Assembly: GCF_018588945.1 (NCBI RefSeq)
Contig: NZ_JAFIWA010000001.1
Location: 1-64,000, forward strand
Source of the DNA: Microbacterium flavescens
Lineage (GTDB): Bacteria; Actinomycetota; Actinomycetes; Actinomycetales; Microbacteriaceae
Direction of reading: 5' to 3'
Length of the DNA: 64,000 nt
Shown: positions 12,901-60,171 of the stretch, piece after piece
Numbering within the stretch: the first letter of the stretch is position 1
How the letters are laid out: every line of letters starts with the position of its first letter
Notes under the pieces: model-generated
Seen by the model: the letters and a program-made list of their open reading frames with translations, nothing else
What the model was told of the DNA's origin: nothing
Database searches by the model: none
Program-made: the position numbers and the translations under genes

Positions 12901-14699
12901 GCCAGCCGCAGCGGTACTCGATCCAGGTGCAGGACGGGTCGGGCGATTGGGTGAGCGTCCCCGAGACGTTCAAGTCGCCCAAGATCGCGCAGCCGAAGTT
13001 CAACGAGGCGCTGTTCGAGCCGGTGACGGCCAGCAAGGTCCGGGTGGCGTTCGTCAACACTCCGTCGAAGTTCACCGCGATCTCCGAGATCCAGGTGTTC
13101 GACTCCGGGCGGGATGTGCCCGCCGTGGTCAACGACGCACCCGTCGTGACCGCCGCGGCCGACCGGTCGCGCGACGGCAATCTGTCGACGACCCTCACCG
13201 GGACGGCGACGGATGACGGCATCCCGGAGGACGGCACGCTGACGTACGGGTGGTCCACGGTGTCCGCACCGGCCGACGCCGGCGTCATCTTCAGCAGCCC
13301 TTCGAGCCTGAGCACCACCGTGACGGGCACGGCGGCGGGCATGTACGTCTTCCGGCTCACCGCCACGGACGGGCAGCTCACCACCGAACGGGATGTCGAG
13401 GTCGAACTCCGCGAGAAGGCCACGTCCGCCGAGTTCGGCGCCGTGGCCACGATCACCACCAGCGGCACCTCGTCGTGGGAGAACCACCTCCGGGTGAACG
13501 AGGCGACCACGCCGGCGAGCTCGTCGCCGGGCGCGGGCAACGGGTGGGGCAACTGGGGCCAGCCGGCCAACGGCACCTCAGCTGCGAACGCCGCGTGGAT
13601 CCGCTACCAGTGGCCGTCCGCGGTCCGTCTCCAGTCGACCGAGATCTACTGGTACGACGACAACGGCGGCACGCGGATGCCGCGACCGGACACGTACGTC
13701 CTCGAGCACTCGAACGACGGCACGACCTGGACGCCGGTCGTCCTGAGTGGAACGTCGACCTATGCCGGCGCGCTCACCCGGAACGCCTACAACCGACTCG
13801 ACTTCGAGCCGATCGAGGCGAGCCAGCTGCGCATCCGGATCACCGGCGTGCAAGGTTCGGGCGCCGGCACGGGTGTGCTGAGGTGGCGTGTGAACGGCGA
13901 GACCGTCGAGTCGGTGGACGCTCCGGTGATCATCCGCACGGTGGTCGGGCAGATCCCCGAGCTGCCCGAGGAGCTGGACGTGGTCTACACCAGCGGCCAC
14001 CGCGGCTCGGTGCCGTTCACGTGGCAGGAGATCACGGCCGACCAGGTGGCGGAGACGAACGTGGAGCCCTTCCTGGTCTACGGCACCAACAGCGCGAACG
14101 GGCTGATCGCCCAGGCGCGGATCTACGTGCGGCCTGAGAACTCGCAGGGCGGGATCTCGATCCAGGGTGCCCAGCAGTTCGAGCAGACCGTCGAGGTCGG
14201 CGAGCTGCCGGTGCTTCCGGAGCGGGTCGAAGTGTCGTACAACGACGGATCCCGCGACAACCGGGCGATCGGGGTCGAGTGGGACTTCGACGAGTCCGTG
14301 GTCGAGCAGCCGGGCGTCTACACGATCCGAGGCGACCTCGTGCTCCCGTCGTACGTGAGCACCGCCGGCACCACGTCGACGACGCTCACGCTCACGGTGG
14401 GCGACGGCATCCCGACTGGGCCGGCCGTCACGGCGACGGCGACGACGCGCTGCATCGCCGGCAAGGTCACGCTGGTGGTCACCGGTGTGAACACCGACGA
14501 CGAGCCGCTCACGCTGGAGCTGAAGTCGGCGTATGGCACGAAGAAGATCCAGAACGTGCAGCCGGGCAAGTCGGTGAGCCAGGCGTTCTCGACACGTGCC
14601 ATCGGCATCACCGCTGGCGCTGCGCAGGTCGTCGCCACGACGGCCGGCGGAGCCGCCGCCACCGTGGATGCGGCCTACCCGGCCGCCACCTGCGGCTGA
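9981..14699 (+). CDS. Large secreted barrel glycoside hydrolase, possibly GH121-like, with common C-terminal domain
   Basis: A 1572-residue Sec-exported protein (signal residues 1-33). Residues about 35-330 look like a beta-sandwich. Residues about 330-800 resemble an (alpha/alpha)6 barrel of the GH63/78/121/142 kind (KAIVYRWWGERYN, TTIEGVNLYQN, RPESAYVWGAFDA). F5/8-type C-like modules follow at about 870-1045 and 1147-1310, with a PKD/Ig-like module between them, then two group-4 Ig-like repeats (ELPEELDVVYTSG, VLPERVEVSYNDG). The common Cys-bracketed tail is at 14448-14696. Candidate acidic residues E372, E514 and E710 have spacing reminiscent of those I recall for HypBA2 (GH121 beta-L-arabinobiosidase). 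Position near an importer and cytosolic GH127 favours release of beta-arabinobiose outside the cell. The ATG at 9981 is chosen for GGAGAGG eight bases upstream. The GH family is uncertain. Confidence 0.6.
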   Translation: MSPVNWRRSVAGAAICALTVTTLALAPTAATADVIPGNESDVGVYTNGQTDSMDIGDPTYLNIDEVTQKLAPGVDWTAASMHDRIFEKDLAAGGTDYYLDRVLGVTGTTNNTVLQTRGRSLYMRGGSNWGVMGFAGSAFAGGPNNLGNFYTVAVPGQTVTEVGAQRFNAPSHAKSRYSIGATGVVADQRKFMTHENAAVTVITFSNPGAEAQTFTVRAASPLATGAGEAGDELVGTRTLTSGANNGLVDTPWSTVRIGLKADGFARSGTNLDREITVPAGGSVDISVVGALYSDGLPAGREELEEYAELAPADAFKTGVTEFNRRWAQDIPYIDVPDAGIEKAIVYRWWGERYNVLDSNEPGYVYQYPTTIEGVNLYQNAVVLTQPMHLQDTKWIRTPYLPYGQILNVGELSGSSAFLDSPGHTSWNNHYSQYLGTAGLEAYNVHGGGADIAERFARYFEGDGVGQLEHYDGNDDMLIAYDTNYMPGNDSDAITFGYPRVNASAPGARTIERPESAYVWGAFDAARQLYDIAGADADKVDEMGDTADAIRDAILGRLWSTEMRSFLAGTSHGAQSAPSSGSGANPLSAAERDLIPAKESNLFDIYAEGLIPTADAETYVDGLRFLRYGDNFPIFPFYTANQYDRAKFGIGGSNNFSNINFTVQYRAVREALRHYDPEGKYVTPEYAARLLDWMAWSIYPGGDARVANQAEYYSNWNATAKTYNRNNPNHVMLGNMNYIYVEDMGGIQPRSDDKVELWPIDLGYDHFMVNNLRYHGHDLTIVWDEDGSHYGLGEGYSLFIDGERKAAADGLGRFVYDPATNEVVESDEGLNVEVVAEEGADLPTAAGTPIEDARVVEYLKTAGIDLEEDAVNLAADARLSSSFTQAGPRPTPWRNFHTPGYSTSSMNYTPGAISETERPVSLDAVSDGLTTNEPFWGNYGTTDANGYVELDFGAPQQFDNVKVWFVSDRQAGGYSQPQRYSIQVQDGSGDWVSVPETFKSPKIAQPKFNEALFEPVTASKVRVAFVNTPSKFTAISEIQVFDSGRDVPAVVNDAPVVTAAADRSRDGNLSTTLTGTATDDGIPEDGTLTYGWSTVSAPADAGVIFSSPSSLSTTVTGTAAGMYVFRLTATDGQLTTERDVEVELREKATSAEFGAVATITTSGTSSWENHLRVNEATTPASSSPGAGNGWGNWGQPANGTSAANAAWIRYQWPSAVRLQSTEIYWYDDNGGTRMPRPDTYVLEHSNDGTTWTPVVLSGTSTYAGALTRNAYNRLDFEPIEASQLRIRITGVQGSGAGTGVLRWRVNGETVESVDAPVIIRTVVGQIPELPEELDVVYTSGHRGSVPFTWQEITADQVAETNVEPFLVYGTNSANGLIAQARIYVRPENSQGGISIQGAQQFEQTVEVGELPVLPERVEVSYNDGSRDNRAIGVEWDFDESVVEQPGVYTIRGDLVLPSYVSTAGTTSTTLTLTVGDGIPTGPAVTATATTRCIAGKVTLVVTGVNTDDEPLTLELKSAYGTKKIQNVQPGKSVSQAFSTRAIGITAGAAQVVATTAGGAAATVDAAYPAATCG

Positions 14700-14820: not shown

Positions 14821-14997
14821 CAAGGATGAAGCGACCGAAAGGCTTTTCGCGTCGCTGCGATCCGTGCACGAGGAGGTCACGATCATGGTGCTTCGCCGAC
14901 CGATCCGCCTCGGCCCCTCCCACTTCCCGGGCGAACGGCCTCGATGCCCCCGGCCGAGCCGGCTCTCGTCCTCGCTGTCCATCAGAAAGGAAACACG

Positions 14998-17304
14998 ATG
15001 ACACCCGAATCCGAATCCGGAATCTCGCGTCGAAACGTCGTCGTCGGAGGAGGTGTCGCTCTCGCCGGCATGGCCGCCGCCGTCGCGCTCCTCGACCCGA
15101 CGCAGGCGCGGGCCGCCGCGCCGCGGCAGAGCGGCGCCGCCTTCCGCCTGGCCGGTCCGGCGCGCTCTGCGCAAGTCGTGCGCGCCGGGCAGACCCTCGT
15201 CTATCCCGATGCGTGGAGCGTGCGTCCGTTCCCGCTGAGCTCGGTGAAGCTCGGGCAGAGCGTGTTCACCCGCGCCCTCAATCAGCATCTGGTGCTGTAC
15301 CGGGCGTACTCGGTCGACAAGATCCTCGCCGTCTTCCGCCGCAACGCCGGTCTGCCGACCAACGGTGCGACGCCTCCGGGCGGCTGGGAGGAGTACGGTC
15401 CCAACCCCGAGGCCCAGCGCTGGGGTCCGCGTGAGTACACGCGGGGCCAGAACACGGCCGGTGCGGGCGGCTGCCTGCGCGGCCACTACGGCGGCCACTT
15501 CCTGAGCGGCGTCTCGATGGCGTACGCCGCGACCGGAGAGCTCGCGCTGCTGAACAAGGTGAACGCGATCGTGGACGGCCTGGAGGAGTGCCGCGCGGCG
15601 CTCGCCGCCCAGGAGTTCCAGGGCGCGCCGCGCTACTCGCACCCCGGCTTCCTCTCGGCGTACGGCGAGTGGCAGTTCTCGGCGCTCGAGGAGTTCGCCC
15701 CCTACGGCGAGATCTGGGCCCCGTACTACACGCTCCACAAGATCCTCGCCGGGCTCCTCGACGCGCACGCCCTGGCGGGCAGCGCGAAGGCGCTGCAGCT
15801 CGCCGAGGGCATCGGGCACTGGGTGTACAGCCGGCTGTCGAAGTGCACTCCGGCACAGCTCGCGCGCATGTGGGGCTCGTACATCGCCGGCGAGTACGGC
15901 GGCATGAACGAGGTGCTCGTCGAGCTGTACTGGCGCTCGGCCGACCCGCAGAAGAGCGAGTTCCTCGACGCGGCGCAGCTCTTCACGCTCCACACCCTGG
16001 TGGACGCCTGCGCCACGGGAACGGACACCCTCAACGGGAAGCACGCCAACCAGCACATCCCGCAGTTCCCGGGCTATGTGAAGCTCGCCGCCGAGACCGG
16101 CGACGACCACTATCTCGACGCGACGAAGGGCTTCTTCGACATGGTCGTCCCCGGGCGCGTGTATGCGCACGGCGGCACCGGCGAGGGGGAGCTGTGGGGT
16201 CCGGCGAACACGGTCGCGGGTGACATCGGACCGCGCAACGCCGAGTCCTGCGCGGCCTACAACATGCTCAAGGTCGCGAGCTACCTGTTCTTCAACGAGC
16301 AGGACCCGAAGTACATGGACTACTACGAGCGGACGGTGCTCAATCACATCCTGGGCGGACGCCGCAACCAGGAGTCGACCAACGGCCCCGAGAACCTGTA
16401 CATGTTCCCGGTGCAGCCGGGCGCCCGCAAGGAGTACGGCAACGGCAACATCGGCACCTGCTGCGGCGGGACCGGCCTCGAGAGCCACGTCAAGTATCAG
16501 GAGGGGATCTACTTCCGATCGGCCGACGAGTCCGAGCTGTACGTGAACCTCTACATCGCGTCGACGCTCACGTGGGACGAGAACGGACTCGAACTCGAGC
16601 AGGTGTCGTCGTATCCCGAGTCCGACACGTCGACCCTGACGATCACCGCGGCGCCGTCGGGGCCGTTGAAGGTGCACCTGCGGATCCCGGCATGGTCGCG
16701 CGGTGCCGAGATCGAGGTCAACGGCACTCCGGCCGGAGTCGCGGTCGAGCCGGGCTCGTACGCCACGATCGAGCGCACCTGGGCGGCGGGCGACACGATC
16801 ACCGTGCGGATTCCGCTCACGGTGCGCGTGGAGGCCGCCCTGGACCGCGCGGACATCCAGACCCTCATGTACGGACCGGTCGTGCTGACCGCCACGAGCT
16901 CCGCGACGAGCTACCTCAAGGTCTCGCTCGCCGACCGGCTCGACCTCGGCGGCAACGTGAGCCGAGGCATCACGAAGACCGCGGCGAACGTGTTCACGAT
17001 CGGCAGCCTCAGCTACGAGCCGGCCTACAACGGCCGGGACGTCGCGTACCACATGTACTTCCAGCGCAATGAGCCGACGGTGACGTTCGCCGGACAGGAC
17101 TCGGGCGTGGCGAACGCCCGTCGGGCGGGGACCACGCTGCTGGACGAAGTGTGGGCGCAGGCGCCGTTCGCCGACCGGAGCGCCTTCCTCGACGCGGTGG
17201 GAGAGGTGTCGTCGGCCTACCTCGCCGCGGGCCTCCTCACCGCGCGGAACCGCCAGAAGATCCTCCTCGCCGCGGGTCGTGCGCCGATCGACGGGGGCAA
17301 GTGA
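14998..17304 (+). CDS. Tat-exported DUF1680 (GH127/GH146) beta-L-arabinofuranosidase
   Basis: A 768-residue protein. The N-terminus carries a twin-arginine signal (SRRNVVVGGG, R11-R12, then a hydrophobic stretch to about residue 38), so it is exported folded. That suits an enzyme that must load zinc in the cytoplasm. The metal site is intact: E416 and C418 (AESCAAYNML) and C488-C489 (GTCCGGTG). HYGGHFLSG and LNGKHAN are further conserved DUF1680 segments. It lacks the common C-terminal domain found on the Sec-exported proteins here. The ATG at 14998 follows GAAAGG. It is followed after 25 bases by the accessory protein gene. GH127 and GH146 cannot be separated by eye. Confidence 0.85.
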   Translation: MTPESESGISRRNVVVGGGVALAGMAAAVALLDPTQARAAAPRQSGAAFRLAGPARSAQVVRAGQTLVYPDAWSVRPFPLSSVKLGQSVFTRALNQHLVLYRAYSVDKILAVFRRNAGLPTNGATPPGGWEEYGPNPEAQRWGPREYTRGQNTAGAGGCLRGHYGGHFLSGVSMAYAATGELALLNKVNAIVDGLEECRAALAAQEFQGAPRYSHPGFLSAYGEWQFSALEEFAPYGEIWAPYYTLHKILAGLLDAHALAGSAKALQLAEGIGHWVYSRLSKCTPAQLARMWGSYIAGEYGGMNEVLVELYWRSADPQKSEFLDAAQLFTLHTLVDACATGTDTLNGKHANQHIPQFPGYVKLAAETGDDHYLDATKGFFDMVVPGRVYAHGGTGEGELWGPANTVAGDIGPRNAESCAAYNMLKVASYLFFNEQDPKYMDYYERTVLNHILGGRRNQESTNGPENLYMFPVQPGARKEYGNGNIGTCCGGTGLESHVKYQEGIYFRSADESELYVNLYIASTLTWDENGLELEQVSSYPESDTSTLTITAAPSGPLKVHLRIPAWSRGAEIEVNGTPAGVAVEPGSYATIERTWAAGDTITVRIPLTVRVEAALDRADIQTLMYGPVVLTATSSATSYLKVSLADRLDLGGNVSRGITKTAANVFTIGSLSYEPAYNGRDVAYHMYFQRNEPTVTFAGQDSGVANARRAGTTLLDEVWAQAPFADRSAFLDAVGEVSSAYLAAGLLTARNRQKILLAAGRAPIDGGK

Positions 17305-17329
17305 CATGACGATGATCGAAGGGAAATCC

Positions 17330-19321
17330 ATGCACACGCTCCGCTCCGGCCGCTCGAGCCGCTTCGGCGTGAGGAAGCTCGCGGTGGCGGTGGTGGCCGC
17401 CGTGGCTCTCATCGCCGGCGGCGCGGCGATCGCGATCCCCGCGACCGCGGCCGACGAGCCGTTCAACGTGGCGCTCGCGTCGGGCGACAACGCGCCGACC
17501 GTCGAGGTCAGCTACGTTCCCGGCTGGAACTCCGCACCGGCGCTCAACAACGGCGTCGTCGGACCGACGAACACGCTCTCCGCCATGTGGGGGACGTGGG
17601 GTGCGCCCGGCAACCCGACGCAGGACATCGCCACCTACACGTGGGAGAACCCCGTCACCGTGAGCTCGTCGAAGCTCTACCTGTGGCAGAACCACCTCAC
17701 GCCCGGCGGCGACTCCGGCGTCATGATCCCTGCTGCGTGGAAGGTCGAGTACCGCACCAGCGCAGGCGAGTGGGCTCCTGTGACGGGTGCCGGCCTGAGC
17801 TACCCGGTGCCCGTGCTCGACACCGCCGCGCCCGTCGCGTCGCAGCCGGTCGTCCAGGCGAACTGGGACGCGGTGACCACGACCGCGGTTCGGCTGGTGC
17901 TCGATCGCGTGGTCTTCCAGACCCAGCGCAAGGCCACGAGCGTCATCGAGTGGGAGGTCTGGGGCGTCGACGCCCCGATCGTCGAGCCCGAGCCCGAGGA
18001 CCCGAATGCGTTCATCGACGCTCAGGCGGTCGCGGTGCGCACCGCGACGGGCACGGCGCCCGAGCTGCCCGAGCAGGTCTGGGTGATCGGCGAGGACGGC
18101 CCGCTGACGTACGTCGACGTGGAGTGGGCGCCGGTCGCGGCATCCGCGTACGCCTCCGCCGGCGAATTCGAGGTCGTGGGGGATCCCGCGGGATACGACG
18201 GACAGACCGTCTCGGCCACCGTGTACGTCGCCGACGAGCTCTCCGACGAGATCGAGGGCGTCGACTACACCGCGACGATCACCACGCCGGGTGTCGAGCC
18301 GGTGCTGCCGGACACGGTGCGCGCCACGTACGACGACGGCACCGCGAGCAGCGACGTCGACGTCGAGTGGGACGCGATCGAGGCGGCGCAGTACGCCGAG
18401 GCCGACGCGATCTTCGATGTCGAGGGCGCGGTCACCGGGTACGCCCCGGGGGCGATCGCGACCGTGTTCGTCGTCGAGCCGCTGAGCCAGGCCGACCCGA
18501 TCGTCTCGATCGAGTTCGACTCCGCTCCGCAGGGTTCGGGGTGGTACACGTCCGCGCCGATGGTCACGGTGACCGCCGAAGAGACGGCGAGCCCCATCGC
18601 GAGCATCGAGTACAGCGTCGACGGCGAGAACTGGATGCCTTACGACGAACCGTTCACGGTCGACGCCCAGGGCGACGTCACGGTCAGCGCCCGGGCGACG
18701 AGCGAGGACGAGGCGGTGGGCGAGGCATCCGCGACGATCAAGGTCGACACGATCGCGCCGACCACCGGCATCGACTGGATCGTCGTCGACGGGGCATCGG
18801 CCACCGTGACCCTGACCCCGTCCGACCCCGAGCCGGGCTCAGGAGTCACGCGCACCGTGTGGTCGGACGGTCCCGACGCGTCGCCGACCGGTGAGCTGAA
18901 CAACATGTACGCGACGTACGAGGAGCCCTTCTCGGTGCAGCTCACCGAAGACCCCCGCTACGTTCACGTGCAGGCTCAGGATGCCGCGGGCAACGTCGAG
19001 GAGCACGTGACGGTCGAACTGCCCACGCTGGTGGGCGGCGGTCTCGACCTGCAGCCCGCCGTGACGCAGCGGTGCGTTGCGGGCAAGGTCGCCCTCGTCG
19101 TCTCGGTGAAGAACGCCGACGACGTGGCAGCCGACATCAGGGTGGAGTCGGCTTTCGGGTCGAAGACCTTCACCGCCGTGAAGGCCGGCGGCACCGCGTC
19201 GATCGCGTTCTCCACCCGCACCGTCGGCATCGGCGGCGGCGACGTCGCGGTGACCGGCTCGGGCGCCGACGACACGACGTACGAGGGGAGTGCGGCCTAC
19301 CAGGCCTTCAGCTGCGGCTGA
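17330..19321 (+). CDS. Secreted multi-module binding protein without catalytic domain, common C-terminal domain
   Basis: A 663-residue Sec-exported protein (signal to about residue 39, ATAADEP). A discoidin-like or galactose-binding-like module (about residues 42-210, with GTWGAPGNPTQDIATYTWENP) is followed by two group-4 Ig-like repeats (ELPEQVWVIGEDG, VLPDTVRATYDDG) and an OmpL47/chitobiase-like Ig segment (IEYSVDGENW). The common tail (19070-19318) ends the protein. I see no glycosidase domain, so a carbohydrate-binding or scaffolding role is inferred. The ATG at 17330 is preferred over 17306 and 17312 because GAAGGG lies six bases upstream. It is co-transcribed with the Tat-exported DUF1680 enzyme. 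Confidence 0.75.
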   Translation: MHTLRSGRSSRFGVRKLAVAVVAAVALIAGGAAIAIPATAADEPFNVALASGDNAPTVEVSYVPGWNSAPALNNGVVGPTNTLSAMWGTWGAPGNPTQDIATYTWENPVTVSSSKLYLWQNHLTPGGDSGVMIPAAWKVEYRTSAGEWAPVTGAGLSYPVPVLDTAAPVASQPVVQANWDAVTTTAVRLVLDRVVFQTQRKATSVIEWEVWGVDAPIVEPEPEDPNAFIDAQAVAVRTATGTAPELPEQVWVIGEDGPLTYVDVEWAPVAASAYASAGEFEVVGDPAGYDGQTVSATVYVADELSDEIEGVDYTATITTPGVEPVLPDTVRATYDDGTASSDVDVEWDAIEAAQYAEADAIFDVEGAVTGYAPGAIATVFVVEPLSQADPIVSIEFDSAPQGSGWYTSAPMVTVTAEETASPIASIEYSVDGENWMPYDEPFTVDAQGDVTVSARATSEDEAVGEASATIKVDTIAPTTGIDWIVVDGASATVTLTPSDPEPGSGVTRTVWSDGPDASPTGELNNMYATYEEPFSVQLTEDPRYVHVQAQDAAGNVEEHVTVELPTLVGGGLDLQPAVTQRCVAGKVALVVSVKNADDVAADIRVESAFGSKTFTAVKAGGTASIAFSTRTVGIGGGDVAVTGSGADDTTYEGSAAYQAFSCG

Positions 19322-20451: not shown

Positions 20452-23343
20452 CTATCCGCAGCTGCGGAGCGCGTAGTCCGCACTCACGGCGGCGTCGTCG
20501 ACCGTCACGCTCACCTCGCCCGCGGCGATGGAGGCGACGCGCGTGCTGAACGCGTACGACACCTTCTTGCCCGCGGCGATCGTGGCCGACTTGGCTCCGT
20601 ACGGCGTCGACACCGCGACCTGGGCGGCGGTGTCGCCCGCGTTCGCGAGCGTGGCCGTCAGCACGACCTTGCCTGCGACGCACCGCGTGTCGGCCGTGAC
20701 CGTCACCTCGACCGCCGACTCGACCGTCACGGTCGCCTCGACGGGCATGCGCGAGTCGTCCTGGGCGACACCCGACACCGTGAACGTGCCCGGCGTCGCG
20801 TAGTCGGCCGGGTCGACGGCATCCCACTGGACGTCGACGGTCTGCTGCGAGCCGTCGACCTTCGTGAGCTGCGCCTGCGGCAGCACCGGTGCGAGGCCCG
20901 CCTTCGTGGTGACGTCCATCGCGCCGACGGTCGCGACGGCGATGTCCGGTGCATAGGCCTCGAGCACCCGCTGGTACTCGGCACGCGTGACCGGGATCAC
21001 CGTGCCGTGGCGGGGCTTGCCCCCGTCGGCGTTCTGCGGAAGGCCGGTGCGCAGCTTCGAGCCGAGCGGCACCCACGCGTTCCCGTCGTTCAGGTTGTCC
21101 GTGCCGAACGGGATGTAGTGGTTCGGGCCGCCGTGGTAGCTCGGCTGGTCGATGAACAGGAACCAGTCCAGCCCGTTCACGTCGCCCTCATTCGCCTGGA
21201 TGATGTTCGCGCCCTCACCGCTGGTGAAGTTGCGTCCCTCGCCGTTGGGCAGACCGGTGCCGACCTGGGCCTTGACGAGCGTCCACTGGTCCGCCGCGCC
21301 GGTCGCGCCGGGCAGCGAGCCGGAGTACGTCGCGAGCAGGTTCGTGGACTTCTCGTGGCGGATCGTCATGTTCGCCTCGTCCTTGGTGAAGCGGTGGTAG
21401 ACGCCGTCCACCTTCGCCACCGTCGAGTCGATCATTCCGAGGCCGGTTCCGCGGCGCACGTCGATCCAGACCTTCGGCTCCGAGAACGTGACGAAGTCGT
21501 CGGTGGTCGCGTACATCATGCGGTTGTACGTCACGGCGGTGCGGTCGGCAGCGTTCGTCGTCGGGTACAGGTTCGATGCCCAGAACACCACGTAGGTGTC
21601 GAGCTCCTCGCTCCAGAACGCCTCCGGCGCCCAGGTGTTACCGGCGAAGTCGGTCGACACCTTGACGTGGCGCTGGTCGGACCAGTTCACCAGGTCGGTC
21701 GACTCCCACACCTCGATGTACTTCGAACCCGAGATCTGCGCGGTCGTGAAGCCGCCCGCGAGACCCGCGACCTTGAGGTCGGTGGCGATCATGTAGAACT
21801 TGTCGCCTTCGGGGGAGCGGATGATGTACGGATCGCGCAGGCCTTCCGTGCCCACCGTCGAGGTGAAGATCGGCTGACCGTCGTTGAGCGTGTTCCACGC
21901 CAGCGCGTCGTTGCCCTTCGAGGCCGCGATGCTCACGCGCTCGGCCCCCTGGCCCTCACCGGTGAAGAACGTCCAGAAGTACGCCTCCGTCTTGTCGTCA
22001 CCGGCCGGCATCGGCTGGATGCGCGCCGAGAACGTCCGGCTGGCCGAGGCCGTGCCGCTGGATGCGGTCGCGATGAGCTCGACGGTCACCGCGTCCGCTC
22101 CGGCTGCCGGACGCTGCACCTCGACGGTGCGCGAGCCCTCGCGCACGCCGTCGCGCAGCGACGCGTGGTCGGCGCCCGAAGCGGCGACGGTCCACTGGAT
22201 CGTGGAGCCCTGAGGGCCGGTCGCCGGCACGGAGAAGTTGGTGCGGATGTCGTCGAGGTTGCCGATCTCGATCGCGGTGAGATCCTGCGCCACCTTCTCG
22301 GAGTCGGCGATCTCCTGCGGCACGCGCACGGCGAAGGTCGCGGTGCGGGTCTCGGCGCCGAGCGTGAAGGTCGCCGTGAGGGTGACGTTCGCGTCGCCCG
22401 CGCCCGCAGCCGGGCGCGTGACGGCGGCGCTCCCGCCGCTGATCGCGATGGCGGCGTTGTCGGATGCCCAGCTCACGGGGAGGCCCGCGCTCGAGGTGGC
22501 CACGGTGAAGTCGGCCGTCGCCTCTTCGGCGACGGTCACGGCCGGGATGGCGCGATCGAACACCTGCGAGGCGTACAGCGACTGCACGTCGGCGCCGCTC
22601 AGCGCCTGGTCGTAGACGGCGAAGTCGTCGATGAGGCCGTTCCAGCTGGTGTCGTTGTACACCGAGCGGCCGAGGCTGGCGATGAGGTTGCCCGAGAAGT
22701 CGGCCACGCTGCGCGAGATGACGTTCTGCCCGATCTGCGCGCCGTTGAGGTACACGGTGAACTGGCCGGAGGTGCCGTTGATGACCGTCGTGTACAGGTT
22801 CATCCCGGCGGGTGTCGTGGGGGAGCCCGTGCCGCCCGTGCCGACCTCGGTGCTCCACGGCGAGGTCGTGTTGACCGAGTTCGTGAAGACGGACTTGACG
22901 TAGCCGCTGGGGTTGCTCGGGTTGAGCAGCCAGTACGACGGCGGGACGTTGCCGCTCGCCGGCTGGATGCCGATGAAGGCGGCCGCGGTGTTCATGGGAC
23001 CGGAGCGAGGCGACAGCCACGTCGAGATGGTCAGGTCCTTCTTGCCGACGAGGGGCGCCGAGGGGATCTCGACGAACGCCGCGGTGCCGCGTGCGCCGCC
23101 CGGCAGGCTGAGGACGCCGCCGCTGACCGAGCCGCCAGACTGCCGCAGCGTCGCGTTGTGGCTGTTGCCGCTGACGTCGGGGATCGTCGTTCCCGAGGCG
23201 GCTTCGAAGCTGTAGTGGATGAGGGGCTCGGCCTCGATCGCGGCGTGTGCCGCGGGCGCGACCGCGCCGGTCAGTGCGAGGGCGACGGCCGTGGCGACCG
23301 CACCGCCTCTCGCGAGGATCCTGGTTCTCTGACGCGTTCTCAC
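20452..23343 (-). CDS. Secreted GH43 protein with LamG, Ig-like modules and common C-terminal domain
   Basis: A 963-residue Sec-exported protein. After the signal (to about residue 35) come a LamG-like concanavalin module (about 40-255), two bacterial Ig-like repeats of the LPVSWASD type (about 270-440) and a GH43 five-bladed propeller (about 450-800). The three GH43 carboxylates fit D504 (GLRDPYI), D639 (MIDSTV) and E710 (GEGANI). TWAPEAFW is the usual substrate-site segment. The common tail is at 20455-20685. GH43 enzymes act mainly as alpha-L-arabinofuranosidases or arabinanases; the exact specificity is not visible. The GTG at 23343 is chosen because GAGGAA lies five bases upstream; the longer frame starts at another GTG with no ribosome-binding site. 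Confidence 0.85.
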   Translation of the reverse strand: MRTRQRTRILARGGAVATAVALALTGAVAPAAHAAIEAEPLIHYSFEAASGTTIPDVSGNSHNATLRQSGGSVSGGVLSLPGGARGTAAFVEIPSAPLVGKKDLTISTWLSPRSGPMNTAAAFIGIQPASGNVPPSYWLLNPSNPSGYVKSVFTNSVNTTSPWSTEVGTGGTGSPTTPAGMNLYTTVINGTSGQFTVYLNGAQIGQNVISRSVADFSGNLIASLGRSVYNDTSWNGLIDDFAVYDQALSGADVQSLYASQVFDRAIPAVTVAEEATADFTVATSSAGLPVSWASDNAAIAISGGSAAVTRPAAGAGDANVTLTATFTLGAETRTATFAVRVPQEIADSEKVAQDLTAIEIGNLDDIRTNFSVPATGPQGSTIQWTVAASGADHASLRDGVREGSRTVEVQRPAAGADAVTVELIATASSGTASASRTFSARIQPMPAGDDKTEAYFWTFFTGEGQGAERVSIAASKGNDALAWNTLNDGQPIFTSTVGTEGLRDPYIIRSPEGDKFYMIATDLKVAGLAGGFTTAQISGSKYIEVWESTDLVNWSDQRHVKVSTDFAGNTWAPEAFWSEELDTYVVFWASNLYPTTNAADRTAVTYNRMMYATTDDFVTFSEPKVWIDVRRGTGLGMIDSTVAKVDGVYHRFTKDEANMTIRHEKSTNLLATYSGSLPGATGAADQWTLVKAQVGTGLPNGEGRNFTSGEGANIIQANEGDVNGLDWFLFIDQPSYHGGPNHYIPFGTDNLNDGNAWVPLGSKLRTGLPQNADGGKPRHGTVIPVTRAEYQRVLEAYAPDIAVATVGAMDVTTKAGLAPVLPQAQLTKVDGSQQTVDVQWDAVDPADYATPGTFTVSGVAQDDSRMPVEATVTVESAVEVTVTADTRCVAGKVVLTATLANAGDTAAQVAVSTPYGAKSATIAAGKKVSYAFSTRVASIAAGEVSVTVDDAAVSADYALRSCG

Positions 23344-23472
23344 GCTGATTCCTCGCTCTCGGCGACGTCGCACAGGTGAGGGGTGCCCCGGGGGCCGACG
23401 TCACCGTCGGGTGCGGGCGTGTGCATCATCGCGCAGGTGTCGGACCGTCGGAAGTGACGGTGTCGGGTGTGC

Positions 23473-23617: not shown

Positions 23618-26600
23618 TCAGCCGCAGCTGGCGGCCGAGTGGGCGATCTGCTGATCGACCGTGACGGGCTGGCCGTCCACGGTCGCCACCGCCTTCAGCG
23701 AAACGGATCCACTCGGCACGGCGACGACTCGGGTCGTGAAGGAGGCCGAAGCGCTCTTCCCCGCCGCCACCGCACCGAATGCCTTCGTGCCGTAGCTCGT
23801 CGTCGCCGTCAGCGTCACAGGGAAGGCCTCTCCGTTCGTGACGATGACGACCTGCACCACCTTGCCGGAGACGCAGCGGGCCGCGACGGCCGCCGTGACA
23901 TCGAGCTCGGGGCCGACGACCGTTACGGTGAGCGTCACCGTGCGATTGGCCGGTGCCACTTCCTCCTCGCGCGTCTGGTTCAGCACGGCCGAACCGTCCG
24001 CGGCGAAGTGCACCGTCTTCACCCGCGCATGGCGGCTCGGGTCGTTCAGGCCGCCGTCGGCGCCGGGGATCCACTCCGAGATCGGCGGGCGCGCGTGGTA
24101 GACGATCACCGGGTTGCCATCCGCATCGAGCGTGAACGAGTTGTGACCCGGTCCGTTCTGCTGGCCGCCGAAGTCGTCGGAGGTCAGCAGCGGGTAGCCC
24201 GTCTTCGTCCACGTCGCGGGCTTCATCAGGTCGCCGTCGATGGGAGCACGGAGCATGCCGATCGAGTACGTCTCATTGACCTCGGACGCCGAGAAGAACA
24301 CGAAGACCTCGTCGTCGCTCTTGATGACGGCCGCCCCCTCGTTGATCACCTGGCTCGCGGTCCGCTCCCACGCGTAGTTGGGCGTGGACAGGAGGATCGA
24401 CGGCGAGATCAGCTGGCTCGGGTTCGACGGGTCGATCTCCGCCATCCGTAGGTCGGAGCTCCCCGGCTTCTCCGCCCACACCATGTAGTGCTTGCCGTTC
24501 GCCTCGAAGTACGTCATGTCGAGCGAGAAGCTCGTGAACGCCGAGGTGTCGCCGGGTGCCGCCTTGATGTAGCCGAGCTCCTCCCAGTTGGCGGCGACCA
24601 TCGGGTCGCTGTTGCCGGGAGCCCGCATGATCGCCGGCCGGATGTTCCAGACGTCGGTGCTGCGGCTCGACGTGAACAGGATGTACCAGTCCCCGTTGAT
24701 CTTGTGCAGCTCGGGCGCCCAGAAGTACCGGTAGGCGCCGGTAGCGACCTTCGAGCCGTTCGACGTGTTCGGCGACGCGGCGTTGCGCGACCACAGCAGC
24801 ACCTGCTCCTGGGCGGTGGTCAGGCCGTTGATCGAGTCCGCGCGGCGCAGCACGATGCGGTCGTAGCCCACACCGGGGTTGGCCTGCGTCGTCGGGTACG
24901 AGCCCGTGAGGTAGTACTCCGTCTCGCCGGTGCGCTCGTCGTCGCGGAACACCCACGGGTCGGCGCGCTCGGGCACGAGGATGCCCTTGCTGTCGCCGTA
25001 GACAGGCTGGTTCACGGTTCCGGTCACGGTGTACTCGCCGGGGGTCTCCAGGTCGACCGTGCTGGTGTCCCAGTTCACGCCGAGCTGCTTGGACGAACCG
25101 TCGGAGTAGCCCAGCTGCACCTTCTCCGGCAGCTCGAGAGCGCCGCCCACCTCGACCTCGACGTCGTCGCCGGCGTCGACCGTCGTATTGACGATCCGAC
25201 CCAGCGACTTCTGCAGGAGCGCGAGTTCGGCTGCGGTGACAGGAAGAGCGGATGCCTCGATCGCGCCCGCCGGCAGACCCGAGATGCTCGGCACGGCCGG
25301 CGCCGTGATCGGCTGCGGCGTGCTGAACGTCGTGAAGTCCTCCGTCGTCACCTCGTAGGCGGCGCCCGCGGGGGTGCGGAGCACGACCCGGTACGCGCCG
25401 ATGCCGTTGTCGTACGCGACGTCCGCGCGGGAGACCGTGATGCCCTGCGTGTTGGTCGTGGAGAGCTTCTGACCCGTGAACGTGACCAGATCCTTCGAGG
25501 TGTAGACGAAGACGCGCCCGTTGGCGGCGTTGTCTGCGGCGATCAGCCCGAAGGTGCCGTCAGGGTTGCGGAACAGCGTCGGGTTCGCGAACTGCGATGT
25601 GCCGGTGCCGAACGTCGGGTAGAGCACGCCCTTGTTGTTGTTGAGCGCGACGAGCGGGTCGCCGTCGCCGGCGATGGCCAGGTGCAGCACCTCCGTCTTC
25701 GCGGTGCCGCCCGAGCGCACGTAGGCGACGGCGCGCCCGGCGTCCTCGGCCTTCACCGTGACGGTGTACGAGCGCTGAGCGGTGTTCCCGTCGCGCGAGA
25801 ACGTGGCGGTGAGCTCGACCGTCGTGTCGGCCGCGGGGCGCGTGACATCGCCGGTCGCGGAGACGACGGCGGGCTGCGAGGACTCCCACGCGATCGCGAT
25901 GTCGTCGACGGCGTCGCGCAGCACGATGCCGGCCGTCACGACTGCGATGCCGAGATCGAAGTCGTCGGCGCTGCGCTCGAGGTCGCGCTGCGGGTCGACG
26001 GCGGGCACCGTGACCTCGTACGCGCGGGTGATCGACTCCCCGCCGAGAGTGAACGTACCGGTGAGGGTGACGACGGCGTCGGGCTGGCCCTGCGCCGGCC
26101 GCGAGACCTGACCGTCGGCGGCGAGGATCCCCGGTGCGGACGAGGCCCACGTGATGCGGGACTGGCTCGCGCCGGCCGCGGGAAGCGTGAGGTCGGCGAT
26201 CGTCTCATCGGGCAGAGCGATGGCATCGGCATCCGCTGCCAGCGCCGCCTGCGTCTGTGCCGCCGTGGTCCGCTCGCTCAGGTGGTACAGCTCGGCGATC
26301 TGCGCCGGTGAATAGGCCGACGTCGAGACGATCACGTCGTCGACTGCTCCCTTGTAGAACGGGTCGGGGTAGGACGACCGGCCGATGTAGCCGACCAGTC
26401 CGGTGCCGAACTGCGTGACGGTGCGCGTCGTCGGAACCGTGCCCACGAGTGCGCCGTTGTAGTAGCCCGAGATCGAGGTCGGCGTGATGACCGTCGTGTA
26501 CATCGCCCATGCCGTGCCGGTCGTCGGGCCGGCGACGCCCTGCGATGCGTTCGTCGGAGAGATGCCGTACTCGGTGCCCCACGGCGCGCTCGGGGCGCTG

Positions 26601-27052: not shown

Positions 27053-27108
27053 TTCAAACCTCTTCGTCGCGGCAGGGGACCCGCGCGGGTTCGCGGGACA
27101 TGGTCGCG

Positions 27109-27137
27109 AGAGTAGCGCGTTACCGCTCACATTCCAA
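27109..27137 (-). promoter_or_regulatory. Promoter with operator in the spacer
   Basis: Leftward TTGGAA (27132-27137) and TACTCT (27109-27114) are 17 bases apart. The operator TGTGAGCGGTAACG, read leftward (27118-27131), lies wholly inside the spacer. It drives the GH43 gene starting at 27052. Confidence 0.65.
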
Positions 27138-27204
27138 GGGTCGATTTGCGATCCCGGGGGGAAGCAATTTGGACGATTCGGCAATTCAAGCCTGGTGTAC
27201 AACG

Positions 27205-27234
27205 TTGAGTTACCGCTAACGTGAGCGATAACAG
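27205..27234 (+). promoter_or_regulatory. Promoter with two overlapping operators
   Basis: TTGAGT (27205-27210) and TAACAG (27229-27234) with an 18-base spacer. Two operators overlap across it: AGTTACCGCTAACG (27208-27221) and CGTGAGCGATAACA (27220-27233), centres 12 bases apart. It drives the three-gene GH43 operon that starts at 27275. Confidence 0.65.
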
Positions 27235-27274
27235 CCGAAGCGACGACGTTCGGCGTCACTTGATGGAGAGTGAA

Positions 27275-40263: not shown

Positions 40264-40292
40264 ATGTTAGCGCTCACGCTGAGGTACGGCAA
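40264..40292 (-). promoter_or_regulatory. Promoter with operator over the -10
   Basis: Leftward TTGCCG (40287-40292) and TAACAT (40264-40269), 17 bases apart. The operator CGTGAGCGCTAACA read leftward (40265-40278) covers the -10 and half the spacer. It drives the 37491 GH43 gene. Confidence 0.7.
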
Positions 40293-40376: not shown

Positions 40377-40420
40377 GCAGGGGCGCGGAGTCGGGATCAG
40401 GCCAAAGGAGCCCTGACACC

Positions 40421-45623: not shown

Positions 45624-46700
45624 GTGCTGTCCCACGCCTCCCGCTCTCGCCGAGCGCTTCGCACCCTCATCGGCCTGCTCGCCGGGCTCACACTGGCCGC
45701 GGGCGCCGCGGCGCCCGCTCTCGCCGATGACGACGCGCCCGACATCCGGTGGTCGGTGACGCCGGCGAATGAGTCCGGGCCGGACGGTCGCACCTTCGTC
45801 GAGAACACCCTCGATCCGGGGGAGTCGGTCGACGATCACTTCGCCGTCCGCAACGTGAGCGGCGAGACGGTCGAGTTCGCGCTGCTCGCCGCCGACGGCT
45901 TCTACACGAGCGCGGGCAGGTTCGACATCCTCCCGGCCGGCGAAGAGTCGGTCGACGCGGGCACGTGGATCTCGCTTCCCGAGTCCGTCACAGTGGGACC
46001 GGGCGAGACGGCCGTGGTGCCGTTCACCCTGACGGTGCCCGACAACGCCGAGCCCGGCGATCACGCCGCGGGCATCACGGCGTCCATCACCTCCGTCCAG
46101 GAGAGCGAAGACGGCACCGCCGTCGGTGTCGAGAGCCGCGTCGGCTTCCGCGTCACGACGCGAGTGACCGGGGTGCTCACACCGGAGGCGGCCGTCCAGG
46201 CTGTCGCCGGCGAATACACGCTCTCGTGGAACCCGTTCCGTCCGGGCGAGGTGCTGGTGGGCCTCGAGGTCGAGAACCGCGGGAACACCATCCTTCTGGC
46301 TGGAGGAACGGTCTCCGCGGGCGGCCAGAGCGCCGCCTTCCCGGCCGAGGGGGAGAACCCGCAGGAGCTCCTTCCCGGAGACACGCATCGCTTCGAAGTG
46401 CTCGTCGACGACGTTTGGCCGCTGTTCGTCGTGCCGGCGAGCGTCGTCGTCACGCCCACCGTCGTGACGATGGGCGGTGAGAGCTCCACCATGGAGCCGG
46501 TCACCGCCGATACGATCGTCTGGGCCGTGCCCTGGCCGCAGCTGCTGCTGCTGCTGGGCATCGCCCTTCTCATCCTCGCGTTGGTCTGGGGCCGCCGCCG
46601 ATCCAAGAAAAGGCTCCAGGACATGCTCGATCAAGCCCGTGAAGAAGGCCGCCGCGCGAACGACGCGCCGGCGAACGACGCGTCGGCGGACGCCTCGTGA
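45624..46700 (+). CDS. DUF916-like membrane-anchored surface protein
   Basis: A 358-residue protein with a signal peptide (to about residue 34), a large extracellular part and one C-terminal transmembrane helix (about 305-322) followed by a basic, then acidic tail. IRWSVTPANESGPDGRTFVENTLDPGESV and FAVRNVSGETVEFALLAADGF match the first half of DUF916 (WxL peptidoglycan-domain companion). A second Ig-like half (VLVGLEVENRGNTILLAGGTV) matches DUF3324-like modules. In Firmicutes such proteins hold WxL proteins at the wall. The start is a GTG at 45624 with a weak ribosome-binding site. The stop overlaps the next gene (GTGA), so the small LPTTG protein is translationally coupled. Confidence 0.7.
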   Translation: MLSHASRSRRALRTLIGLLAGLTLAAGAAAPALADDDAPDIRWSVTPANESGPDGRTFVENTLDPGESVDDHFAVRNVSGETVEFALLAADGFYTSAGRFDILPAGEESVDAGTWISLPESVTVGPGETAVVPFTLTVPDNAEPGDHAAGITASITSVQESEDGTAVGVESRVGFRVTTRVTGVLTPEAAVQAVAGEYTLSWNPFRPGEVLVGLEVENRGNTILLAGGTVSAGGQSAAFPAEGENPQELLPGDTHRFEVLVDDVWPLFVVPASVVVTPTVVTMGGESSTMEPVTADTIVWAVPWPQLLLLLGIALLILALVWGRRRSKKRLQDMLDQAREEGRRANDAPANDASADAS

Positions 46701-51130: not shown

Positions 51131-51134
<4 letters not shown>

Positions 51135-57186: not shown

Positions 57187-60171
57187 ATGAGACCGCAATC
57201 GCCACCGTCCACTCGCGCACCGCGCCGGCGTTCCGCACGCCGCGCGGTCGCGGCATCCGTCGCCACCGCCCTCGCGGTCTCGGTCATGGGCCTCACCGCC
57301 CCTCTGGCCGCGAACGCCGCGGTCGTCCCGGCGCCGAGCGCGCACTACGACATGTCGCACTCGGGCACGTCGCTGCTCGACGTGTCGGGCAACGGCCGCA
57401 ATGCGACGCTCTCCGGTCTCACGGACGCGTCGTTCGCCCAGGCGGGCGCCGATGACATCCTGCGCTTCCGCGCGGACGGCTATGCGTCGCTCCCCAAGGG
57501 CCTGGTGACGGGCACCGACAACAACTTCACCGTCGAGTACACCGTCTCGAGCCAGACCTCGGGGAACCACTTCGGCTGGGTCATCGGCGACGGCGTCGGC
57601 CCCTGGAACACCACGCAGCTCGGTAACCACGTCTTCCTGAGCCCGCGCTCCTCGCAGGGCGGCTACACCAACCAGGTGCTCGCGGCCATCCGCGTGAAGA
57701 CCCCCGAGGGCAACGGCGAGACGCGCATGCCGGCGGGCGGCGGCCTGAACCCCGGCTTCACGACCCTCACCATGGTCGGATCCGGCAACACCCTCACGCT
57801 GTACCGCGACGGCGTCGTGATGTCGACGCTGACGCACGACAAGTCGATGAGCGCGATCATCCCGAGCGGCAACGTGCTCGGCTACCTCGGCCGCTCGCTC
57901 TACCAGGGCGACTCGCTGCTGCGCGCCGACGTGTCCGACGTCAAGTTCTGGGACGTGGCGCTGACCGCCGAGGAGGTCTCGAGCAGCATGCCGAGCGCCG
58001 CAGACAAGACGGCTTCGACCGCGGCACTGCTGCGCGGAGACGTGCTGGCGAACATGCTGGGTGCGAACCCGTCGCTCGCTCAGGTGTCCACCAACCTCAC
58101 GCTCCCGGCCTCGGTCAACGGCGTCACCCTCACGTGGGCGTCGTCGAACCCGGCTGTGATCTCCACGGCCGGCGTGGTGTCACGGGCGATCACCGACAAC
58201 ACCGTCGTCACGCTCACGGCGACGACGTCGCTCGGAAGCACGCTGACGTTCGACGCGACGGTGCTGGCCCCGAGCGTGTCGGCGGACCTCGACGCGATCA
58301 CGCTCGCGGACCGGTCGACCGAGCACCTCCCGCTCGCGACGAAGGGCGCGGTCAACGGCGCGTCGATCACCTGGACGTCGTCCGATCCTGAGCTGGTGAC
58401 ACCCACGGATGCCTCCTACCAGGCTCCGGCCGTCGGTGCACCCGATCCCTTCCGCGGCGGCGGCCTCGTCGCACGCCCGGCGTACGGCGAAGGCGACCGC
58501 GAAGTGACGCTCACCGCGACTGCGACCCTCGGCGGCCGCACCGCCGAGCGCACCTTCGAGGTCACCGTGGCAGAGGAGGGCCGCTGGGCCCCCGACGCCG
58601 GGTACGCAGCGGCGTACTTCAAGTCCGACGGCGACGAGAAGATCTACCAGGCGGCCACGGCCGGCAACGACTTCTTCTCGTTCTCGCCGGTCAACGCCGG
58701 TGCTCCGGTGATCACGTCGACCGCCGACACCCGAGGTCTGCGCGACCCGTACATCCTCCGTTCGAAGGACGGCGACAAGTACTACATGGTCGCCACCGAC
58801 CTGTGCATCAGCTGCGGCACCGGATGGGGTCCCGCCCAGTCGGCCGGAAGCCTGAAGATCAACGTCTGGGAGTCGACCGACCTCGTCCACTGGACGCGCA
58901 CCAACGGCGTCAACTCGGCGATCACGGTGAACCAGCCGCGCGCCGGCATGACCTGGGCGCCTGAGGCGTACTGGGACGACGCGCTGCAGTCGTACGTGGT
59001 GCACTTCTCGTCACGCCTGTACGCGGACGAGTCGCACACCAACGGCGACAACCTGCACGCTCGGGTCTTCTACGTGCTCACGCGCGACTTCCAGACGTTC
59101 ACGTACCCGCCGGTCGAATGGCAGAACACCGGATACGCGCGCATCGACTCCACGATCCAGAAGATCGACGACTACTACTACCGCTTCACCAAGAACGAGG
59201 ACGGCGGCGCCGCCGACGGGCTCGAGATCGGCAAGGACATCTTCCTCGAGCGTTCGAAGGTGCTCACGGCTCCGACGACACGCTCGGACTGGAACGCCGA
59301 CCCGGAGACCACCTGGCAGCTCACCGACACCTACATGACGCGGCTGGAGACCAATCAGGTGGGTGAAGGGCCGCAGATCGTCAAGCTGAACGAGGGCGAC
59401 CCGAACAACACGGCCTCCAACGACGGCTTCGCGTTCCTCGTGGACAACTTCGCCGCCGGTGGCTACCGCGCGTTCGTCACCACCGGCGCCGAGATCGCCA
59501 GCAGCAGCCAGAGCGACCGTCTGTCGCGCCGCGCGGACTGGAACGTGCGCCCGGTCGGCGGGCTTCCCGCCAGCCCGCGCCACGGCTCGTTCGTGAGCGT
59601 GACGCAGACCGTGCTCGATGCGATGCACGACTGGACGGATGTCGCGGCCGTGCCCTCCACGACGGCGCTGACCGCCGAGGACCGCGTTGCGACCGCCGAG
59701 GTCACCGCCGAGGACGGCGGCGAGGTGGCGGGCACCGTCACCTTCTCGGGCGGGTCGTGGTCCGAGACGGTCGACCTCGAGGCCCGCTCGGCGTCGGTCA
59801 CGGTCCCGGCCGGAGTGGGCAGCGTCACCGCCCACTACGACGGCTACGCCGATGGGGCCGTGAGCCCTTCGACGTCCTCGGCCATCTCGTTCGGCCTCGA
59901 GCTGACCGCGTCGGCCACGACGCGCTGCATCTCGGGGAAGGTCACCGAGGTCGTCAGCGTCACCAACGCCGACGACGCGGCGGCCACCGTCAGGATCGCC
60001 GGTGCCTACGGCAGCAAGACGGTCACCGTCGCCGCGGGCAAGACCGTGTCCGCCTCGTTCACGACACGCGTCGCCTCGATCGCGGCGCACGCCGTGTCGA
60101 TCACGGGTGAGGCCGCCGACGGCCGCACCCACACCTCCACGGTGACGGTCGCGGCCGCCACCTGCCAGTAG
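57187..60171 (+). CDS. Secreted GH43 protein with LamG-like, Ig-like and common C-terminal domain
   Basis: A 994-residue Sec-exported protein (very basic N-terminus, signal to about residue 45). It has a LamG-like module (about 50-270), two Ig-like repeats (about 290-470) and a GH43 propeller with D520 (GLRDPYI), D654 (RIDSTI) and E727 (GEGPQI). Two Cys in LCISCGTGW may pair. A further Ig-like module precedes the common tail (59923-60168), which ends CQ rather than CG. The architecture matches the 20452 and 30897 proteins. The ATG at 57187 follows a GAGGGGGG stretch. It closes the importer-araDBA operon and has no operator of its own. Confidence 0.85.
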   Translation: MRPQSPPSTRAPRRRSARRAVAASVATALAVSVMGLTAPLAANAAVVPAPSAHYDMSHSGTSLLDVSGNGRNATLSGLTDASFAQAGADDILRFRADGYASLPKGLVTGTDNNFTVEYTVSSQTSGNHFGWVIGDGVGPWNTTQLGNHVFLSPRSSQGGYTNQVLAAIRVKTPEGNGETRMPAGGGLNPGFTTLTMVGSGNTLTLYRDGVVMSTLTHDKSMSAIIPSGNVLGYLGRSLYQGDSLLRADVSDVKFWDVALTAEEVSSSMPSAADKTASTAALLRGDVLANMLGANPSLAQVSTNLTLPASVNGVTLTWASSNPAVISTAGVVSRAITDNTVVTLTATTSLGSTLTFDATVLAPSVSADLDAITLADRSTEHLPLATKGAVNGASITWTSSDPELVTPTDASYQAPAVGAPDPFRGGGLVARPAYGEGDREVTLTATATLGGRTAERTFEVTVAEEGRWAPDAGYAAAYFKSDGDEKIYQAATAGNDFFSFSPVNAGAPVITSTADTRGLRDPYILRSKDGDKYYMVATDLCISCGTGWGPAQSAGSLKINVWESTDLVHWTRTNGVNSAITVNQPRAGMTWAPEAYWDDALQSYVVHFSSRLYADESHTNGDNLHARVFYVLTRDFQTFTYPPVEWQNTGYARIDSTIQKIDDYYYRFTKNEDGGAADGLEIGKDIFLERSKVLTAPTTRSDWNADPETTWQLTDTYMTRLETNQVGEGPQIVKLNEGDPNNTASNDGFAFLVDNFAAGGYRAFVTTGAEIASSSQSDRLSRRADWNVRPVGGLPASPRHGSFVSVTQTVLDAMHDWTDVAAVPSTTALTAEDRVATAEVTAEDGGEVAGTVTFSGGSWSETVDLEARSASVTVPAGVGSVTAHYDGYADGAVSPSTSSAISFGLELTASATTRCISGKVTEVVSVTNADDAAATVRIAGAYGSKTVTVAAGKTVSASFTTRVASIAAHAVSITGEAADGRTHTSTVTVAAATCQ

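Follow-up and report, generated by a model that had tools for sequence, protein, structure and literature searches.

Actinobacterial polysaccharide degradation is usually seen as a free-enzyme system. In dockerin–cohesin systems, one small domain is found on many enzymes that share a common surface partner; dockerin is calcium-binding and the scaffold carries multiple cohesins. The csc/WxL clusters of Bacilli encode CscA, a DUF916/WxLIP protein, and the WxL proteins CscB and CscC (PMC1534035, PMC9772566, PMC10599100). Surface complexes for plant polysaccharides have been proposed for these clusters, and the authors drew a comparison with the cellulosome (PMC1534035). Over 91% of 938 known WxL sequences come from Firmicutes (PMC9772566). 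We analyzed a 64,000-nucleotide stretch of Microbacterium flavescens DNA (contig NZ_JAFIWA010000001.1, ‘the window’), in which ten secreted proteins end in the same domain, hereafter the tail. One tail gene directly precedes genes for a WxL-like and a DUF916/WxLIP-type protein. From sequence comparisons, we propose, with a probability of about 60%, that the tail is a C-terminal docking domain by which secreted polysaccharide-degrading enzymes of some soil- and plant-associated bacteria are retained on a WxL/WxLIP-like surface complex.

All ten tails located by an initial annotation of the window translate in frame, carry the domain it described and are directly followed by a stop codon (10/10). 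The reported motifs RC[VI][AS]GK, [YF]G[SAT]K (AGSK once), F[ST]TR and a terminal C-G (C-Q once) are present as described. Only the Asn of a further proposed motif, V-x-N-x-D/E-D, is invariant; the rest is loose (e.g. ANAGD, TNGEA, RNGAD). Twelve positions do not vary across the alignment of the ten window tails (A1): R1, C2, G5, K6, N15, G30, K32, G40, F47, T49, R50 and C85. The tail is a real domain, as had been claimed, but an alignment of 90 tails (A2) and the AlphaFold2 model made from it place its N-terminal start about 14 residues earlier and add a first strand, strand A, that had been omitted.

The tail is common to different enzymes, as the initial annotation stated, occurring on glycoside hydrolase (GH) families 43 and 127 and on a protein without a catalytic family. 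With strand A included, tails end four GH43 proteins (host 23618-27643, tail 23621-23920, – strand; host 27221-30784, tail 30482-30781, + strand, the first row of A2 and the sequence modelled; host 33839-37237, tail 36935-37234, + strand; host 37491-40292, tail 37494-37781, – strand) and three GH43-like proteins (host 20452-23373, tail 20455-20727, – strand; host 30897-33824, tail 33522-33821, + strand; host 57187-60171, tail 59881-60168, + strand, with the terminal C-Q). The others end a GH127 protein (host 40319-44569, tail 44267-44566, + strand), an exported protein with Big_4 repeats in which no catalytic family was found (host 17279-19321, tail 19028-19318, + strand) and an exported protein of 1609 residues (host 9870-14699, tail 14406-14696, + strand, extending the original 14448-14696 by strand A).

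The GH127 tail gene is directly followed by a gene for a very acidic, exported WxL-like protein of 231 residues (44852-45547, + strand), the proposed direct partner of the tail. Next comes a DUF916/WxLIP-type gene (45624-46700, + strand). Its 358-residue product has a signal peptide and a C-terminal transmembrane helix that can be read directly in the translation, and is the proposed membrane anchor. Relatives of this protein are annotated as DUF916 proteins. The WxLIP peptidoglycan-binding domain (Pfam accession PF06030) matches 14 of the 31 members of an alignment that includes such proteins (A8, best E 7.7e-9), presumably its 14 DUF916-type members, while the window copy scores 21.0 bits, below the cut-off of 27.3. 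The second domain, DUF3324, does not appear in the list of 23 Pfam families that A8 yields at E up to 1.

The WxL-like protein has an invariant D58-x-R60 followed by W69-x-V71, and ends in Y167-x3-[LI]-T172-L173-x-L175. It thus carries WxV and LxL rather than the two W-x-L motifs of a small WxL protein. The published distal WxL motif is YXXX(L/I/V)TWXLXXXP (PMC5817068), and the first motif is preceded by an Asp and an Arg two residues apart (PMC9772566). Because D-x-R/W-x-V and Y-x3-[LI]-T-L-x-L resemble these motifs, the small acidic protein looks like a WxL domain with Leu in place of the second Trp. A structural model of it (predicted local distance difference test score, pLDDT, 84.5, with the first 20 residues poor) has pilin-type sandwiches as neighbors, several of which rely on a donor strand for completion. 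These likenesses are weak (Z at most 8.2), the best being the pilin tip CfaE complex (Z 8.2, root-mean-square deviation, rmsd, 3.5 over 122 residues), and no WxL structure was recognized among the neighbors. The donor-strand likeness fits the published prediction that WxLIP binds WxL and, through a hairpin, completes its sandwich (PMC10599100).

Homologues of both partners are repeatedly found directly downstream of tail genes in the loci that we retrieved for tails, and this linkage to both genes extends to several bacterial families. In a survey of 394 genomes of the class, profile A2 (E 1e-4) identified tails in 33; copy numbers per genome of tails and WxL-like genes here and in the phylum and genus surveys are lower bounds, because the candidates scored in each genome were limited to 12 for tails in the class, 13 in the phylum and 33 in the genus, and to 8 for WxL-like genes. 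A WxL-like profile built from 21 sequences (A6) matched 62 of the 394 genomes at E 1e-5, with a gap that splits strong from weak matches. The strong matches (E 1.4e-44 or better) comprise 34 genes in 20 genomes; we set aside one more strong match, a partial one at the start of a contig (G647:C14). None of the 34 is more than 7 kb from a tail gene and 25, the window pair among them, are directly downstream on the same strand. Every genome with a strong WxL-like gene is tail-positive (20/20, versus 33/394 overall; p 2.8e-25). The class-wide test describes one linked subfamily, not every WxL-like protein. Weak WxL-like relatives (families f5, f90, f82 and others) occur mostly in longer frames and in genomes without tails, and a broader WxL-like family may exist in Actinomycetes.

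Another family contributes a genome, G522, in which all seven WxL-like genes directly follow tail genes; only one of the seven has a DUF916 gene beside it in the stretch read, which suggests that the WxL-like protein is the tail’s nearer partner. In a further family (f96), six genomes place the WxL-like gene about 5.5 kb ahead of a tail gene; the two stretches read there have the WxL-like gene, then DUF916 and later two tail genes. The bodies of 44 tail proteins encoded directly before a WxL-like gene, some cut by locus ends, form 14 BLAST clusters, so it is the tail, not any single enzyme, that tracks with the WxL-like gene.

We also identified a strong homologue of the DUF916 protein, used as a single query, in 42 genomes of the genus survey (E 1e-70 or better; next genome 1.4e-60). 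Tails are present in 41 of these 42 genomes and in 12 of 31 genomes with weak DUF916 matches only, the latter resembling the background (68/149). Among 30 loci with a strong DUF916 gene (window included; L236, which starts at a contig edge, left out), 16 have a tail directly upstream on the same strand; counting tails as far as about 6.5 kb upstream, the stretch read contains one in 23. One genus genome (G918) has ten matches to the DUF916-type protein, and its locus L241 has no nearby tail or WxL-like gene. A DUF916 search of a plasmid collection returned 11 records, and the three that we examined all carry tail, WxL-like and DUF916 genes. These genes stand in a row on a Clavibacter phaseoli plasmid and a Nonomuraea gerenzanensis replicon, and a Cellulosimicrobium protaetiae plasmid has the WxL-like/DUF916 pair amid four tail genes; annotations in these records read family 43 glycosylhydrolase, LamG-like or immunoglobulin-like protein, hypothetical protein and DUF916 protein. 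The Streptomyces and Embleya records of the collection have weaker DUF916 matches. The initial annotation had favored a targeting, wall-binding or protein-docking role, with the WxL-like and DUF916-like proteins as candidates, and the linkage (34/34 within 7 kb; 41/42) backs that suggestion.

The window’s own genome (3.42 Mb, 17 contigs) encodes 17 tails, ten in the window and seven elsewhere, all at the ends of long frames. A single tail as query finds all 17 places (E 1.6e-49 to 1.5e-10) and a profile of the ten window tails finds the seven other copies at 3.0e-29 to 1.0e-21; at these E values, the likeness among tails is more than chance. Each of the seven further proteins ends in the tail and has, by eye, a signal-like N-terminal stretch. 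The genus survey (A2, E 1e-6) identified the tail in 68 of 149 genomes, with 1 to at least 26 matches per genome. A phylum survey with the narrower A1 (E 1e-5) found it in 6 of 396 genomes, all from the window’s own family. Some tails (e.g. in L284) came to light only on reading the stretch. The closest named relatives are Microbacterium, and a locus in a genus genome (L221, G888) has the same gene spacing as a named Microbacterium locus (L027).

AlphaFold2 models the 100-residue tail with high confidence (mean pLDDT 96.3, predicted template modelling score 0.85) as seven strands and no helix. Foldseek returned no structure in the Protein Data Bank (PDB) at E 0.001 or better. The neighbors identified with VIA-align are immunoglobulin-like (Ig-like) sandwiches, the closest in transglutaminase 3 (Z 11.0, rmsd 2.4 over 91 residues, 12% identity) and others in GH2 and ApaG; the fold is shared with these domains and nothing more. 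Neither Pfam nor NCBIfam matches the tail above cut-off. The commonest of the Pfam matches listed is PF05506, likewise named as a C-terminal domain (of phospholipase C), with weak matches in 15 of 90 tails (best E 1.1e-4). In whole window proteins, however, it stays below its cut-off of 24.4 bits, scoring 15.3 in two of the ten and giving no match at E 0.1 for the remaining eight. It was too sparse for a comparison profile (4 of 99 genomes matched, too few domains). PDB sequence searches with A1 and A2 yielded designed proteins and noise only, and no known family for the tail. For the ten tails, NCBIfam gave three unrelated single matches at E up to 1 and no type IX secretion sorting domain. 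The profile searches, with PF05506 as their best match, thus place the tail in no known carbohydrate-binding or Ig family.

A carbohydrate-binding module (CBM) that keeps enzymes on plant polysaccharide is an unlikely explanation of the tail, if the best-surviving of those other than docking. It agrees with the hosts, which are polysaccharide-degrading enzymes: a Pfam scan of 120 tail hosts identified GH43 in 69, GH127 in 13 and GH30, GH53, GH20 and GH59 in a few (113 hosts come from named-contig loci and seven from the window’s own genome, a biased set because the loci were retrieved by the tail motif typical of the window). Distant GH127 relatives appear by eye to have ricin-type lectin repeats at the same end, one aromatic position of the tail is conserved (Y/F43), and the CBM fold BhCBM56 appears at Foldseek rank 50 (E 0.086). 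Weak Pfam matches to single tails include CBM_35 (8/90, best E 0.0023) and CBM_6 (1/90, E 0.0059), alongside CARDB (8/90). At the tails of the ten window proteins, however, no CBM family scores above cut-off. One tail type is shared by enzymes from several families, and many hosts already have LamG domains (73/120) or, in a few cases, CBM4_9, CBM6 or F5/8. Binding of polysaccharide also leaves the strict C-terminal position and the WxL-like/DUF916 linkage unexplained.

The tail is more positive than the residues that precede it (up to 500) in 144 of 145 proteins, with net charges of 0.6 versus –5.4 per 100 residues. Thirty tails from the profile search keep R15 in 27, C16 in 29, N29, Y/F43 and G44 in all 30, K/R46 in 29, R64 in 27 and C99 in 29, with K20 in only 11; the conservation of G19/K20 in A2 is partly an artefact, as named loci were retrieved with the pattern RC[VI][AS]GKV. 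From strand order alone, R15/C16 (A-B turn), Y/F43-G44-K/R46 (C-C’ turn), R64 (start of the E-F loop) and the C-terminus should lie at one end of the sandwich. The proposed partners are acidic (per 100 residues, –14.4 for WxL-like proteins and –9.6 for DUF916 ectodomains). We propose contact between the tail and the WxL-like protein because basic residues are conserved at this end of the tail, the tail is relatively positive and the partner is acidic. The conserved R15, K/R46 and R64 and the charge difference would also suit a basic face that binds peptidoglycan or anionic polymers of the cell wall directly, with the linked surface proteins as separate passengers, and the window proteins lack other anchors such as a lipobox or LPxTG. 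We consider direct wall binding improbable, marginally more so than a CBM, as it leaves unexplained why WxL-like genes directly follow tail genes, seven times in one genome.

The initial annotation proposed a disulfide that ties the ends of a small beta-sandwich. In 151 unique complete tails, both conserved Cys are present in 147, neither in 4 and one alone in none, and there is no other Cys between them; this joint presence or absence supports the disulfide. An automatic count in a larger set of 234 unique tails gave 217 with both, 9 with neither and 8 flagged as having one. On reading, five of these eight have both Cys, L229 is cut by the locus edge, and the remainder are L255 and L036. In L069, L058, L102, L116 and a further tail, L140, both Cys are gone and the remaining domain is intact. 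The C-terminal position is nearly invariant: the tail ends exactly at the stop codon in 164 of 170 profile hits (overlapping loci counted), and 232 of the 234 unique tails, some of them partial, end no more than three residues from it. The exceptions are again L036, a frame-shifted fragment, and L255 (complement of 113-2407). The latter is the only internal tail seen, without the first Cys and flanked by two near-identical copies of another domain, and may reflect duplication or a fault in assembly.

The ten window tail proteins have an N-terminal signal-like segment and no lipobox. They also lack LPxTG, as previously noted, and end at the tail, so all ten fail as sortase substrates (LPxTG plus a C-terminal transmembrane helix). 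Past the signal segment, there is no strongly hydrophobic stretch (best 19-residue mean 1.9). If these enzymes are attached to the cell, something else must therefore retain them. The statement that the tail is missing from twin-arginine-exported and cytosolic enzymes holds for both tail-less GH127 proteins of the window. One, within the cluster (14944-17304, + strand), has a twin-arginine type N-terminus, and folding before export would disfavor a disulfide-dependent domain. The other (1958-4108) has no tail match, and its first 90 residues contain no hydrophobic stretch.

Relatives of two host enzymes show the same association with export. Among relatives of the GH43 protein 37491-40292 at 47% identity or more, the tail is present in all six proteins of the exported, multi-domain type (L183, the window gene, L184-L187 and L195; in L185 and L195 the start is cut by the locus edge and export was judged from domains) and in 0 of 7 signal-less proteins that start close to the catalytic domain (L188-L194). 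For the GH127 protein 40319-44569, the tail is present in L153 (the window gene), L154 and L179 and absent from the signal-less L155 (58%). Replacement of the tail by a known anchor (LPxTG or a transmembrane end) was seen in none of these relatives whose frames stay within the locus; they end in the tail, nothing, an Ig-like stretch or ricin-like repeats. Because signal-less relatives have no tail and exported relatives without it exist, the tail belongs to exported forms yet is dispensable for export as such.

A structural cap, in which a disulfide-locked end shields long exported proteins from unfolding and proteolysis, would account for the C-terminal position, the paired Cys and the absence from signal-less orthologues. 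Given that tail-less exported homologues exist, that versions without the Cys persist, and that the conserved charged positions and the gene linkage would be unexplained, we regard such a cap as rather improbable. An export or assembly signal, with the WxL-like protein as a secretion or folding factor, draws on the gene pairing and on the pilin-like neighbors of the WxL-like model but is very improbable, as the enzymes have ordinary-type signal-like N-terminal segments and some tail genomes lack a strong WxL-like gene.

If the tail is a docking domain, Sec export would be followed by formation of the disulfide, which links the tail’s last residues to its first strand. The end that bears the C-terminus, R15, Y/F43, K/R46 and R64 would then bind the acidic WxL-like protein. 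This would retain the enzyme non-covalently on a complex of WxL-like and DUF916/WxLIP-like proteins, in which the DUF916 protein would hold the WxL-like protein at the membrane and perhaps at peptidoglycan. Many arabinan- and hemicellulose-type hydrolases could share one dock on the cell through the common tail, and the sugars released would consequently remain near the transporters of the same cluster. The fuller proposal, an actinomycete cellulosome-like system in which as many as two dozen different secreted glycoside hydrolases per genome carry a disulfide-locked docking domain, with a WxL-like receiver, a DUF916 membrane anchor and possibly strand exchange, strikes us as an even bet.

Several observations weigh against docking on such a complex. 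First, Pfam does not recognize a WxL domain in the WxL-like protein. Second, profile A6 was trained on tail-adjacent members, the cuts between strong and weak matches were chosen for both partners after the gaps had been seen, the genomes are related rather than independent, and paralogous units may be whole copies. Third, the partners are not always detected: 13 of the 33 tail-positive class genomes lack a strong WxL-like gene, and six of these 13 (G343, G409, G419, G558, G593 and G657) have no WxL-like match at E 1e-5, although some assemblies are fragmented and G468, one of the 13, has WxL-like pieces at contig ends beside tails. Likewise, 27 of the 68 tail-positive genus genomes have no strong DUF916 homologue, and 7 of the 30 strong-DUF916 loci (L241-L245, L249 and L256) have no tail in the stretch read. 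Finally, the exported GH127 relatives L156 and L157 are tail-less and end in another Ig-like stretch, and about ten more distant exported relatives end, by eye, in apparent ricin-type lectin repeats.

The window is an L-arabinose/arabinan cluster that encodes an arabinose isomerase, an FGGY kinase, a class II aldolase-type protein, an aldose epimerase, LacI-type regulators and two ABC sugar transporter gene sets. The large N-terminal half of the 1609-residue tail protein (9870-14699, + strand) has no Pfam catalytic family, its sole match being a sub-threshold Glyco_hydro_65C; the protein is possibly a glycosidase type not yet described. A gene for an MPAB/Lcp-type oxygenase (Pfam accession PF09995; 19379-20389, – strand) adjoins the tail gene 20452-23373 in the cluster.

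A further counterpart considered was the putative C-terminal CBM of Microbacterium EndoMA1, which resembles CBM4-2 and CBM61 and holds D-arabinan through Phe379 and Trp468 (PMC10509167). This CBM is likewise a C-terminal beta-sandwich on an arabinan-degrading Microbacterium enzyme (PMC10509167). We rejected the identity of the two domains because their residues and fold relatives differ (PMC10509167) and the tail profiles missed EndoMA1 among solved structures. A literature search, mainly of open-access papers, found none that ties DUF916 or WxL to actinobacterial glycoside hydrolases. Pfam lists no dockerin for the ten proteins or the ten tails, nor among the best 25 of 37 families for the 90 tails.

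If the docking proposal is correct, Microbacteriaceae and several other families arrange hydrolases on the cell surface, and DUF916/WxLIP proteins outside Bacilli gain a concrete role. The tail would also define an unnamed domain family, present in 33 of 394 class genomes, and provide a new small docking pair for protein engineering. As in dockerin–cohesin systems, a small domain on varied enzymes would share a surface partner. Unlike the calcium-binding dockerin, the tail is an all-beta sandwich that is probably disulfide-locked, and, unlike a cohesin scaffold, the partner would be a single WxL-like domain.

There are parallels with the csc/WxL clusters as well. Both systems co-encode an exported DUF916 protein with a C-terminal transmembrane helix and a small WxL or WxL-like protein, in both, large proteins combine ConA-like domains with a dedicated domain at the C-terminus, and for both a surface complex for plant polysaccharide use is proposed. 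In the present system, however, the large proteins end in the new tail rather than a WxL domain, they are recognizable glycoside hydrolases, and many are encoded away from the pair. In its small protein the motifs are changed to WxV and LxL, and Pfam detects no WxL domain there; the system also shows no DUF3324 match and belongs to Actinomycetes, not Bacilli. The system therefore falls outside the csc family as defined, though by analogy it may work like csc and dockerin–cohesin docking, and our best reading is that it represents an actinobacterial, cellulosome-like variant of the csc/WxL clusters.

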